Source: Nitrospirota bacterium
GTDB taxonomy: Bacteria; Nitrospinota_A; UBA7883; JACRGQ01
Assembly: GCA_024275955.1 (NCBI GenBank)
Contig: JAJRYD010000047.1
Location: 1-6,471, forward strand
Direction of reading: 5' to 3'
Length of the DNA stretch: 6,471 nucleotides
Shown here piece by piece: positions 3,054-5,634 of this stretch; position 1 is the first letter of the stretch, and every line of letters begins with the position of its first letter. The notes below the pieces were generated by a model. It was not told the origin of the DNA. It saw only the letters and a program-made list of their open reading frames with translations, and did no database searches. A program made the position numbers and the translations under genes.

Positions 3054-3512
3054 TTAGGATTTCGAATTTAATATATGTTTTCTAACCTCTCTGTCTTTTA
3101 TTTCGTTTACTTTCCAGTAACAGTCACAGACGAAACATCCGAAAGTATTTCGATTTCTTTGAAGCGAATATTCGCCGCATTTAGGGCAAGTAGCTCTTTT
3201 TTTTATCCATTTATCGTAACTATCTAGGCATTCTTTGATATGCTCTGCATTTATCTTTAGGCCGTATTTTTTGGCTAGTTTTCGCGTTTCTTCCCATGCT
3301 TCATGCTCTAGCTCTAAAAGCTCCACGTCATAGTTATAAGAAAAATGGTCTAACTTCATATGAGCTATTTCATGAAGGAGGGCCAGCGATCCATTTTCGT
3401 TTTCTATTTCTTCGGGAATATAAGTTATAGTTTTATCGTTTGAGTTAAAAGAAAAAACATCGCCGGGAAGGCATTTGTTTTTCTTGATTATGTTTTTAAT
3501 TATGGTATTCAT
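3054..3512 (-). CDS. ImmA/IrrE-like zinc metallopeptidase with C-terminal zinc ribbon
   Basis: A 152-residue protein. LLHEIAHMKLDH (45-56) carries the HExxH zinc site at H47, E48 and H51, and the following LELEHEAWEE (67-75) supplies a probable third ligand at E71, as in the ExEA helix of the ImmA/IrrE family. The C-terminal part has CPKC (109-112) and CFVCDC (126-131), resembling a zinc ribbon. ImmA-type enzymes typically cleave phage or conjugative-element repressors, and IrrE cleaves the DdrO repressor in Deinococcus. Here no partner repressor (XRE-type) is next to it, so the substrate is unknown. An in-frame TAA six bases upstream fixes the ATG as the earliest start. There is no Shine-Dalgarno sequence, and the promoter suggests a leaderless mRNA. 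It may be a host gene or a remnant of an integrated element. Confidence 0.8.
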   Translation of the reverse strand: MNTIIKNIIKKNKCLPGDVFSFNSNDKTITYIPEEIENENGSLALLHEIAHMKLDHFSYNYDVELLELEHEAWEETRKLAKKYGLKINAEHIKECLDSYDKWIKKRATCPKCGEYSLQRNRNTFGCFVCDCYWKVNEIKDREVRKHILNSKS

Positions 3513-3672
3513 TGGTTTTTATTTTATTCCCAAAGTTATCCCCATGTAAAGCATAAGCAAAAAATCAAATTTCAAAAATCAAATCTCAAAGTATAAAGTA
3601 AAATTAACAAATATATATTGGCGCAACAAAACAAGTATACAAATTTTTGTCATTGACGTGGCATAAAATTTT
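3513..3672. other. Intergenic region with AAATC/AAATTTC repeat words
   Basis: Besides the promoter, this 160-base gap holds the A-rich repeat at 3558-3590 (AAAATCAAATTTCAAAAATC followed by AAATCTCAAA), which shares its words with the 23S helix 79 insert. No ORF, tRNA or clear trhP terminator was found. Confidence 0.5.
3521..3550 (-). promoter_or_regulatory. Promoter of the ImmA-like gene, probably leaderless
   Basis: Read on the - strand, TTTACA (3545-3550) and TAAAAT (3521-3526) are separated by 18 bases, each matching the sigma-70 consensus at five of six positions. The ATG begins only eight bases after the -10 box, so transcription would start at or next to the start codon. This agrees with the missing ribosome binding site. 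Confidence 0.55.
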
Positions 3673-5634
3673 CTATTTAGCGACTCTTTTTCTCATCAAA
3701 GTCATTTCGGGGTAAGTGTTTTTTAATCTTAAGTATGCTTTTTGGTCTTTTCTGCCCGGGTTTACAACGGTTATTTTTCTGCCTGATTCGTCTGTTATGC
3801 CAAGAACTTTTTCTTTTGAAACTCTCTCGGGAGTAATTATTTCTAGTGTATCACCGACCTTAATCTGATTTCTGACTTCTATATAGTTCCAGTTGTCATC
3901 CTCAAGTTTCCTGCTCGACCGAATAGTTGTTTGGGCGGGGATCCGGGGGTCTGGATTTTTTTCGGATTTTGCCTGTTGGATGTTATAGATTCCTGCTTTC
4001 GCAGGAATGACAGAAGGAGATGCAGGAATGACAGAAGGGGCGTCAGGAATGACAGAAGGAGATGCAGGAATGACAGGGGAGGTGTTATCTCGACTGGCCT
4101 TGCAAGGCGATGAGTTTCTTCTTCGTTTTTCAAGGGGTTCTTCCGCTTCGGTCGGAATGACAGAGAAGGTGTCATCTCGATCGGCTTCGCAAGGCGATGG
4201 GTGAAGAGATCCCTTTCCCACTTGTTTTTTAAGAGGTTCCTCTGCTTCCGCAGGAATGACAGAAGAAGGGCGGGAATGACAGGGGGATGGAGTAGAATGA
4301 CGTTTTGGAGTTGGCCTGACAACGGCAACGAAGTTATATTTTCTTATAGGTTGCCTTTTGGGATATGTTTCACCTTCTTTTGCTTTACCGAATGCAAATC
4401 CAGTCGTATAGCCGCGATAGTTTAGAGTTCTTAGTTCTTTTTCAAGTTCCTTTATTATTTTTCCATTAAAAATATTATTATTTATAGTATCCAGTGCTTT
4501 TCTGTATGCTTTTGCGACTATACCAAGGTAGTATATAGATTTGTTTCGCCCTTCAACTTTTAGCCCTGTGATTCCTGCATCTAAAACTTTATCCAAATAT
4601 CCTATCAGGCATAGATCTTTTGAATTCATGATATATGTGCCGTTCTCATCTTCTTCAATAGGGAAATATTCTCCGGGACGCAGTTTTTCTTCGAGATAGA
4701 TTCCTGCTTTCGTAGGAATGACAGAAGGAGATGCAGGAATGACAGGGGAGGTGTTATCTCGACTGGCCTTGCAAGGCGATGAGTTTCTTCTTCGTTTTTC
4801 AAGGGGTTCTTCCGCTTCGGTCGGAATGACAGAGAAGGTGTCATCTCGACCGACTTCGCAAGGCGATGAGTGAAGAGATCCCTTTTTCTCATTAATGTCA
4901 TTCCCGTGTAAACGGGAATCTATATTTTTAATTTCCTTTTTCTGAATTCCTGCTTTCGCAGGAATGACAGAAGAGGGATCAGGAATGGCATTAGTGCTTT
5001 TTACTTTTTCATTTTTACATTTTATCTTATATTCCCATCTGCATGGTTGGGCACAGTCTCCTAGATTTGCTTCTCTACCGGTCATATAAGCGGAGAGGAG
5101 ACACCTTCCTGAATAAGAGATGCACATAGCACCATGGACAAACATTTCAAGCTCCATATCGGGTACGCTTTCGTGAATCTTTTTAATCTCTTTCAGGGTT
5201 AGCTCGCGAGCTAGTATAACCCTCTTTACCCCGAAGTCCTTCCATAGCTTCACTGCCTCTGCATTAACTGTATTTTGCTGAGTAGAGATATGAATAGGGA
5301 CTTTTGGGGCGTTTTCTTTAATTATTCTCAGTACTCCCATATCGGCAACTACGAAAGCGTCGGGGTTAAGCTTTGCAATTTTTTTAATGTCGGAGGCAAG
5401 GGTTTTCAGATGTTTCTCGTGGGCAAAGATATTGAATGTGACATACACTCTTTTGCCTTTTTTATGCGCATCTCTGATTACTTTTTCGATTTGAGGAATA
5501 GTAAAGCGCACCTCTCCTTTCCTCATAGAATATTTAGGAAGTCCCAGATATACTGCATCGGCGCCATACTCAAGCGTAAATCGTGCTTTTTCAGCATCTC
5601 CAGCAGGTAATATTAGTTCGGGCTGCTTGTTCAT
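3673..5634 (-). CDS. trhP: TrhP-type U32 family tRNA hydroxylation protein, invaded in frame by repeats
   Basis: A 653-residue homologue of E. coli TrhP (YegQ), which takes part in forming 5-hydroxyuridine at tRNA position 34 in the cytoplasm. The start ELILPAGDAEKARFTLEYGA matches the U32 barrel. FVHGAMCISYSGRC (165-178) with C194 and C198 gives four cysteines suited to an iron-sulfur cluster. RPGEYFPIEEDENGTYIMNS (319-338) and GLKVEGRNKSIYY (357-369) are TrhP signatures, and a C-terminal beta domain follows (about 585-625). E. coli TrhP has about 450 residues. The excess lies in two in-frame repeat blocks, residues about 216-313 and 441-575, at points where the E. coli protein has linkers. 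The core is unbroken, so a functional enzyme is plausible. The ATG overlaps the recombinase stop (ATGA) and lacks a good ribosome binding site, implying translational coupling. RlhA is the alternative U32 subfamily, but the signatures favour TrhP. Confidence 0.88.
   Translation of the reverse strand: MNKQPELILPAGDAEKARFTLEYGADAVYLGLPKYSMRKGEVRFTIPQIEKVIRDAHKKGKRVYVTFNIFAHEKHLKTLASDIKKIAKLNPDAFVVADMGVLRIIKENAPKVPIHISTQQNTVNAEAVKLWKDFGVKRVILARELTLKEIKKIHESVPDMELEMFVHGAMCISYSGRCLLSAYMTGREANLGDCAQPCRWEYKIKCKNEKVKSTNAIPDPSSVIPAKAGIQKKEIKNIDSRLHGNDINEKKGSLHSSPCEVGRDDTFSVIPTEAEEPLEKRRRNSSPCKASRDNTSPVIPASPSVIPTKAGIYLEEKLRPGEYFPIEEDENGTYIMNSKDLCLIGYLDKVLDAGITGLKVEGRNKSIYYLGIVAKAYRKALDTINNNIFNGKIIKELEKELRTLNYRGYTTGFAFGKAKEGETYPKRQPIRKYNFVAVVRPTPKRHSTPSPCHSRPSSVIPAEAEEPLKKQVGKGSLHPSPCEADRDDTFSVIPTEAEEPLEKRRRNSSPCKASRDNTSPVIPASPSVIPDAPSVIPASPSVIPAKAGIYNIQQAKSEKNPDPRIPAQTTIRSSRKLEDDNWNYIEVRNQIKVGDTLEIITPERVSKEKVLGITDESGRKITVVNPGRKDQKAYLRLKNTYPEMTLMRKRVAK
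3989..4008. repeat. 20-bp palindrome ATTCC(N10)GGAAT, copy 1
   Basis: ATTCCTGC and GCAGGAAT around TTTC form a perfect 8-bp stem. It has the same size and shape as the Neisseria dRS3 element ATTCCC(N8)GGGAAT. Confidence 0.85.
4003..4086 (-). repeat. 21-bp tandem repeat, four units
   Basis: Units at 4003-4023, 4024-4044, 4045-4065 and 4066-4086, each starting AGGAATGACAG on the + strand; the first and third are identical. Seven codons per unit give the protein repeat VIPASPS/VIPDAPS. Only two units (4714-4755) are present in the other block, so copy number probably varies by slippage. Confidence 0.9.
4045..4216 (-). repeat. 172-bp direct repeat, copy A
   Basis: Aligns without gaps to 4714-4885 with only three differences (4181 T/C, 4184 G/A, 4200 G/A). 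The 669-bp offset is a multiple of three, so both copies are read in the same frame. Confidence 0.95.
4086..4114 (-). repeat. 29-bp dispersed unit (SSPCKASRDN type)
   Basis: TATCTCGACTGGCCTTGCAA then GGCGATGAG on the + strand. Related copies lie at 4173-4201, 4755-4783 and 4842-4870. They keep the frame TCTCG...GCAAGGCGATG with changes in the middle, so this is a second repeat family interleaved with the ATTCC palindromes. Confidence 0.8.
4700..4719. repeat. 20-bp palindrome ATTCC(N10)GGAAT, copy 2
   Basis: ATTCCTGC, TTTC, GTAGGAAT. It differs from copy 1 by one base (C to T), which leaves a G-T wobble in the stem. Confidence 0.85.
4714..4885 (-). repeat. 172-bp direct repeat, copy B
   Basis: Partner of the repeat at 4045-4216. 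The identity ends abruptly at about 4886, where the sequences diverge (CTTTTT here against CTTTCC). Near-identity points to recent duplication or gene conversion. Confidence 0.95.
4900..4919. repeat. 20-bp palindrome ATTCC(N10)GGAAT, copy 3
   Basis: ATTCCCGT and ACGGGAAT around GTAA form a perfect 8-bp stem. Here the dRS3-like form ATTCCC(N8)GGGAAT is matched exactly; it is translated as part of DSRLHGND. Confidence 0.85.
4946..4965. repeat. 20-bp palindrome ATTCC(N10)GGAAT, copy 4
   Basis: Identical to copy 1 (ATTCCTGC, TTTC, GCAGGAAT). It marks the upstream edge of repeat block 1 and is translated as VIPAKAGI. Confidence 0.85.

Follow-up and report, generated by a model that had tools for sequence, protein, structure and literature searches.

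We conclude that the gene analysed here is an ordinary enzyme core carrying two in-frame inserts made of palindromic repeats. The gene lies on a contig of 6,471 nucleotides (the window, by which we mean the whole stretch of DNA analysed), and its open reading frame of 653 residues has no stop anywhere within it. An initial annotation of this DNA had proposed an intact TrhP core with ~230 extra residues inserted at positions 3910-4989. The large in-frame gain is borne out, with the figure revised to ~245 amino acids for both inserts summed (107 and 138 codons), and the interval does hold the repeat blocks, except that its positions 4315-4698 are normal TrhP core between the inserts. The gene and its inserts are as follows (handles beginning with G denote genomes of relatives).

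3673..5634, minus strand: U32-family TrhP-like tRNA-modification gene, 653 codons with both inserts counted (Pfam/NCBIfam matches and orthologue alignment)
4699..5019, minus strand: insert 1 (107 codons; residues 206-312), with a beta strand on either side; G479 and G612 lack it
3901..4314, minus strand: insert 2 (138 codons; residues ~441-578), within the linker that leads to the C-terminal domain; G549 and G612 lack it
3894..4302, minus strand: outer boundaries of insert 2, from CGTCATTCT (4294-4302) to GAGGATGACA (3894-3903)

The U32 catalytic domain and the U32 C-terminal domain (Pfam) are matched in order and split around the inserts. Because PF01136 and PF16325 both score above cut-off and the fold is that of U32 proteins, the protein belongs to the Peptidase U32 family; the nearest solved fold in Foldseek is the U32 peptidase 5d88, while a sequence search found no solved structure at E 0.01. 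The top NCBIfam family is TrhP, the prephenate-dependent tRNA U34 hydroxylase. The score for NF011996 is 398 bits versus a cut-off of 534 bits (the G509 orthologue is likewise below it, with 401 bits), and we therefore refer to the product as a TrhP-like U32 protein. Orthologues, which are ~400-450 residues long, match residues 1-204, 313-440 and ~579-653, and in an alignment of 32 sequences (the window protein and 31 orthologues) the invariant residues, including C171, C178, C194 and C198, are all outside the inserts. Over the first 204 residues, amino-acid identity to G479 and G549 (84%) exceeds nucleotide identity (75%), a pattern as under purifying selection. The enzyme would presumably retain activity despite the inserts.

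The inserts were initially annotated as four dispersed repeats, translated as SVIPAKAGI, RLHGND, PTEAEEPLEK and SPCKASRDN. All four are readings of dispersed repeats; they represent two types of element rather than four. SVIPAKAGI and RLHGND are the readings, in opposite orientations, of a single palindrome of ~25 bp, a TGTC-tagged REP with an 8-bp stem and a 4-base loop. The complete palindrome (TGTCATTCC...GGAAT) is present in four copies on the 6.5-kb contig, three on the minus strand and one on the plus strand, together with a total of four 21-bp half copies, which at 7 codons each are frame-neutral. PTEAEEPLEK and SPCKASRDN are the head and the tail, respectively, of a second element that is longer and ends in similar inverted sequences (TGTCAT...ATGACA-like); pieces of it recur across many Patescibacteria genomes. 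As the initial annotation had stated, the gene holds two composite blocks, each combining REPs with the second element:

4946..4969, minus strand: REP palindrome TGTCATTCCTGCGAAAGCAGGAAT, insert 1, read SVIPAKAGI
4896..4920, plus strand: REP palindrome TGTCATTCCCGTGTAAACGGGAATC, insert 1, in opposite orientation, DSRLHGND in the gene
4752..4832, minus strand: second element, insert 1, head TGTCATTCCGACCGAAGC..., tail ...CAGTCGAGATAACA, read SVIPTEAEEPLEK...SPCKASRDN
4725-4745: single 21-bp half-REP, insert 1
4699..4723, minus strand: REP palindrome ending insert 1, read SVIPTKAGI
4170..4262, minus strand: second element, diverged copy, insert 2, read SVIPAEAEEPLKK...SPCEADRDD
4083..4163, minus strand: second element, second copy, insert 2
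4014..4076, minus strand: three tandem 21-bp half-REPs, insert 2, SVIPASP / SVIPDAP / SVIPASP
3988..4012, minus strand: REP palindrome, insert 2, read SVIPAKAGI

A stretch of 172 bp (4045-4216 and 4714-4885) is common to both inserts at 98% identity, and all three differences between these copies are nonsynonymous, three being too few to prove neutrality. Insert 2 has similar starts or ends in G479, G509 and G630, which suggests an older shared element that would later have been filled from inside. Chance would not be expected to leave a frame of such length and composition free of stops: for inserts 1 and 2, respectively, 4.6 and 3.6 in-frame stops are expected and none is observed, and under a Markov-1 model the probability of zero stops is 0.01 and 0.02, with both inserts together open in 0/5000 cases. 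Insert 2 lacks stops in a second forward frame as well, so the nature of the repeat accounts in part for the open frame. Read from its sequence, the bare palindrome has a stop in only one of six frames, the other five being open.

In the AlphaFold model, pLDDT is below 50 at residues 210-309 and 447-575, nearly coinciding with the inserts. Insert 1 lies between strands at 203-206 and 312-315, and insert 2 between strands at 433-439 and 582-587. The model is uneven, in that the core is otherwise mostly confident and residues 172-200 also have low pLDDT. Both blocks are thus predicted to be disordered and to lie between beta strands of an intact core, in line with the initial proposal that they occupy linkers.

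Orthologues reveal these sites in empty and filled states. In G612, a syntenic relative, both sites are empty. In G479, site 1 is empty and site 2 is filled (RHSDEGRIS...), while in G549 site 2 is empty and site 1 contains a near-perfect hairpin. Repeat-free junctions thus exist at the places that had been predicted for them. In G509, site 1 reads VIPDSIRNP...PRVKPEDD...SVIPAKAGI and site 2 RHSEQSEES...; in the same genome (L318:5003-5083), the last ~27 TrhP codons are duplicated ~1.3 kb downstream of the gene. The insert at site 1 of G630 is related to the second element of the window and has a TAG in frame; this TrhP gene may be broken or split, or the sequence may contain an error. Further different inserts are present at these sites in G621, G592 and G310. 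Among 88 Patescibacteria orthologues, there are 32 internal insertions of at least 12 amino acids, 31 of them in three loops (19 at residue 204/205, 6 at 386-389, 6 at 446-455 and 1 elsewhere). Recognisable repeats do not account for all 32, several being short AT-rich stretches. Inserts in other genomes are mostly hairpins with TGTCAT/ATGACA-like ends, and parts of several recur in the same genome. Because different palindromes occupy the same sites in relatives, the orthologue comparison supports repeated, separate insertion events, and we infer that the mobility is one of insertion and not of repeated deletion.

The initial annotation assigned the repeats to a probable CPR genome, which holds for the contig and not for the assembly that contains it. 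The assembly (2.45 Mb, 98% complete) has its own other 23S rRNA, 78-80% identical to that of the window, and a TrhP match was found in only one of ten family relatives of the assembly. By contrast, a phylum-wide search centred on a Buchananbacteria genome identified TrhP proteins with 84% identity in G549 and G479, 80% in G509 and 74% in G630, and these four genomes have the neighbouring KGG-motif and 152-residue genes in the window's order. In G562, a 23S rRNA gene adjoins TrhP and is 89% identical to that of the window over 385 bp versus 79% for the assembly's own. Thus, the rRNA, the TrhP similarity and the gene order all identify the host as a member of the Patescibacteria (CPR). Repeat counts over the assembly found the window's repeats on this contig and nowhere else. 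The window contig is mis-binned and the assembly is an unrelated genome. A narrower placement within the class of Buchananbacteria, taken from a TrhP tree, was set aside: the placement is weak, the branch is long and the 84% relatives came from the phylum-wide search. Two further observations concern the contig itself. First, its partial 23S rRNA gene has two stretches (1082-1258 and 541-642) with 26-nt inverted repeats at their ends, which may be intervening sequences of the CPR-rRNA kind. Second, the 152-residue gene and TrhP are adjacent in the window (3512-3673) and roughly 3-5 kb apart in relatives (L315-L318).

The initial annotation also called for a genome-wide count, and in genomes of relatives the REPs indeed turn out to be dispersed. 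With at most 3 mismatches, the palindrome is present in 123 of 380 genomes of the Buchananbacteria-containing class, where matches to the reversed pattern are nearly absent, and five close relatives have 21, 50, 44, 4 and 4 copies, with 0 in the reversed-pattern controls. From stretches around matches we compiled 63 distinct REPs (all strong matches of G509 and some of those of G479 and G549), which make up a non-random sample; 19 of these 63 are inside open reading frames of at least 150 residues, and ~18 are in frame in conserved genes with family models matching both flanks. The genes concerned encode HolA, PrmC, RecG, PpsA, two LeuRS, an RluA-family synthase, two PcrA-like helicases, AlaRS, ArgRS, PriA, Pth, MiaB, GatD, HypE, TrhP and a DUF763 protein. 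Fifteen of the 19 intragenic REPs are read as either VIPAxAGI (9) or DSRLRGND (6). The LeuRS genes of two close relatives (L359:3-2084 and L373:3-2330) have a NUDIX domain inserted beside the editing domain and, in addition, a REP whose position is almost identical in the two. MiaB of G509 (L389:1098-2585) seemingly has three separate repeat-derived inserts of different families. We also considered a GTAG REP mobilised by a RAYT/Y1 transposase and rejected it: the tag is TGTC, Y1 transposase genes (Y1_Tnp) are as common in REP-rich (19 of 30) as in REP-free genomes (26 of 50; p=0.36, no association), and no REP directly adjoins any of the Y1 genes inspected in close relatives.

We suggest, with considerable confidence, that these inserts reflect wide insertion of REPs followed by a filter for frame and for a flexible loop, after which further copies are attracted. 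In this model, short palindromic REP-type elements dispersed in this Patescibacteria clade would insert at many places, and survival in coding DNA would require a net length that is a multiple of three, an open frame and a flexible surface loop, of which TrhP would offer three. Once resident, an element would be a place where more copies insert, duplicate in tandem or undergo gene conversion, so that the inserts would grow by nesting. The core would be kept under purifying selection, while the inserted peptides would be disordered and probably unselected; both the order of nesting and the neutrality of the inserts are steps that we infer. A bolder alternative, in which REP insertion is not random and then filtered but directed, for instance to existing REPs or to exposed DNA at certain gene positions, and the translated palindromes are a genome-wide source of new protein loops in Patescibacteria, appears unlikely to us.

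It is very unlikely that the inserts are instead functional and kept by selection, with hairpins slowing translation between folding units or peptides altering tRNA binding. Such a role would fit with inserts that lie between structural units, form strong RNA hairpins and recur in the same loops, and effects of REPs in repair and RNA-modification genes have been suggested by Di Nocera et al. (PMC3733652). However, the sequence, length and family of the inserts vary between relatives, G612 has none, the G630 insert contains a stop codon and the differences between the 172-bp copies are all nonsynonymous. Still less credible is an assembly artefact in which similar repeats from different places in the genome were misjoined. 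While the shared 172 bp are about the length of a read and the contig sits in the wrong bin, the order of the three core segments and their reading frame are maintained through both blocks, independent assemblies of relatives have inserts at the same loops, and the ends of insert 2 agree with those of relatives, even if the number of copies within the blocks may be incorrect. Equally improbable is that the gene has become a pseudogene, where nothing any longer opposes insertion, as the very large inserts and the TAG in G630 might indicate, because the window gene has a 653-codon open frame, keeps every invariant residue and has a core more conserved in protein than in DNA.

These observations extend protein-coding palindromic repeats to the Patescibacteria, with tRNA synthetases, helicases and RNA-modification enzymes decorated, and suggest that genes can take in junk-like DNA without breaking. 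TrhP also represents a natural insertional scan of one enzyme, with three loops, many independent insertions and empty orthologues; thus, the long-standing question of whether inserts of this kind are neutral junk or supply material for new parts of proteins becomes directly testable.

In other bacteria, CGTC REPs are defined by an unpaired CGTC tag at one end (with TGTC and CCTC variants allowed), a stem of 8-9 bp with AT pairs first, a loop of 4-5 bases and an unpaired 3-base tail, which is CCA in most, and they occur in multiple copies dispersed over the genome (PMC3733652). In the window, TGTC precedes every complete palindrome, the 8-bp stem starts with AT and encloses a 4-base loop (ATTCCTGC-GAAA-GCAGGAAT), and the tail is CTA or varied, while the copy in G509 TrhP reads CCA (GGAATCCAG). 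The two systems also share in-frame intragenic copies and the lack of an associated transposase, CGTC REPs having no associated transposase (PMC3733652) and the REPs described here no Y1 association. Moreover, the gene categories with REPs here resemble those listed for other bacteria, in which intragenic REPs are found in DNA-repair, tRNA-synthetase and RNA-modification genes, with possible functional effects proposed (PMC3733652). However, in-frame REP clusters in those species, mostly Alphaproteobacteria, encode 43-82 amino acids at largest (Di Nocera, De Gregorio and Rocco 2013, PMC3733652), while here ~107 and ~138 amino acids are present in one gene of a Patescibacteria host and the REPs occur alongside a longer element and half units in tandem. 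RPE-4, RPE-6 and dRS3 of Neisseria (CGTC-1) have been assigned to the CGTC/TGTC REP superfamily (PMC3733652), whose tag, stem and loop are found here. Unlike the inserts in TrhP, dRS3 elements are clustered repeats and are not described as peptide-coding inserts in an enzyme (PMC3733652). The likeness to Rickettsia palindromic elements drawn by the initial annotation is apt: as for RPEs, palindromes are in frame in unrelated housekeeping genes with the peptides tolerated (Ogata et al. 2000, 2002, reviewed in PMC10969869), and the tag, stem and loop fit the superfamily holding RPE-4 and RPE-6. However, classic RPEs are single elements of ~150 bp in Rickettsia, while the units here are shorter, composite nested REPs in a host that is not Rickettsia, and the same loops are reused by different families. 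Full-text searches of open-access papers returned nothing relevant on REPs in CPR/Patescibacteria. Proteins decorated by REPs or RPEs are a known phenomenon, and the case described here, from Patescibacteria, is unusually large and recurs in a single enzyme; relative to the open-access papers searched, what is new is the phylum, the size within one gene and the reuse of the same three loops by different families.
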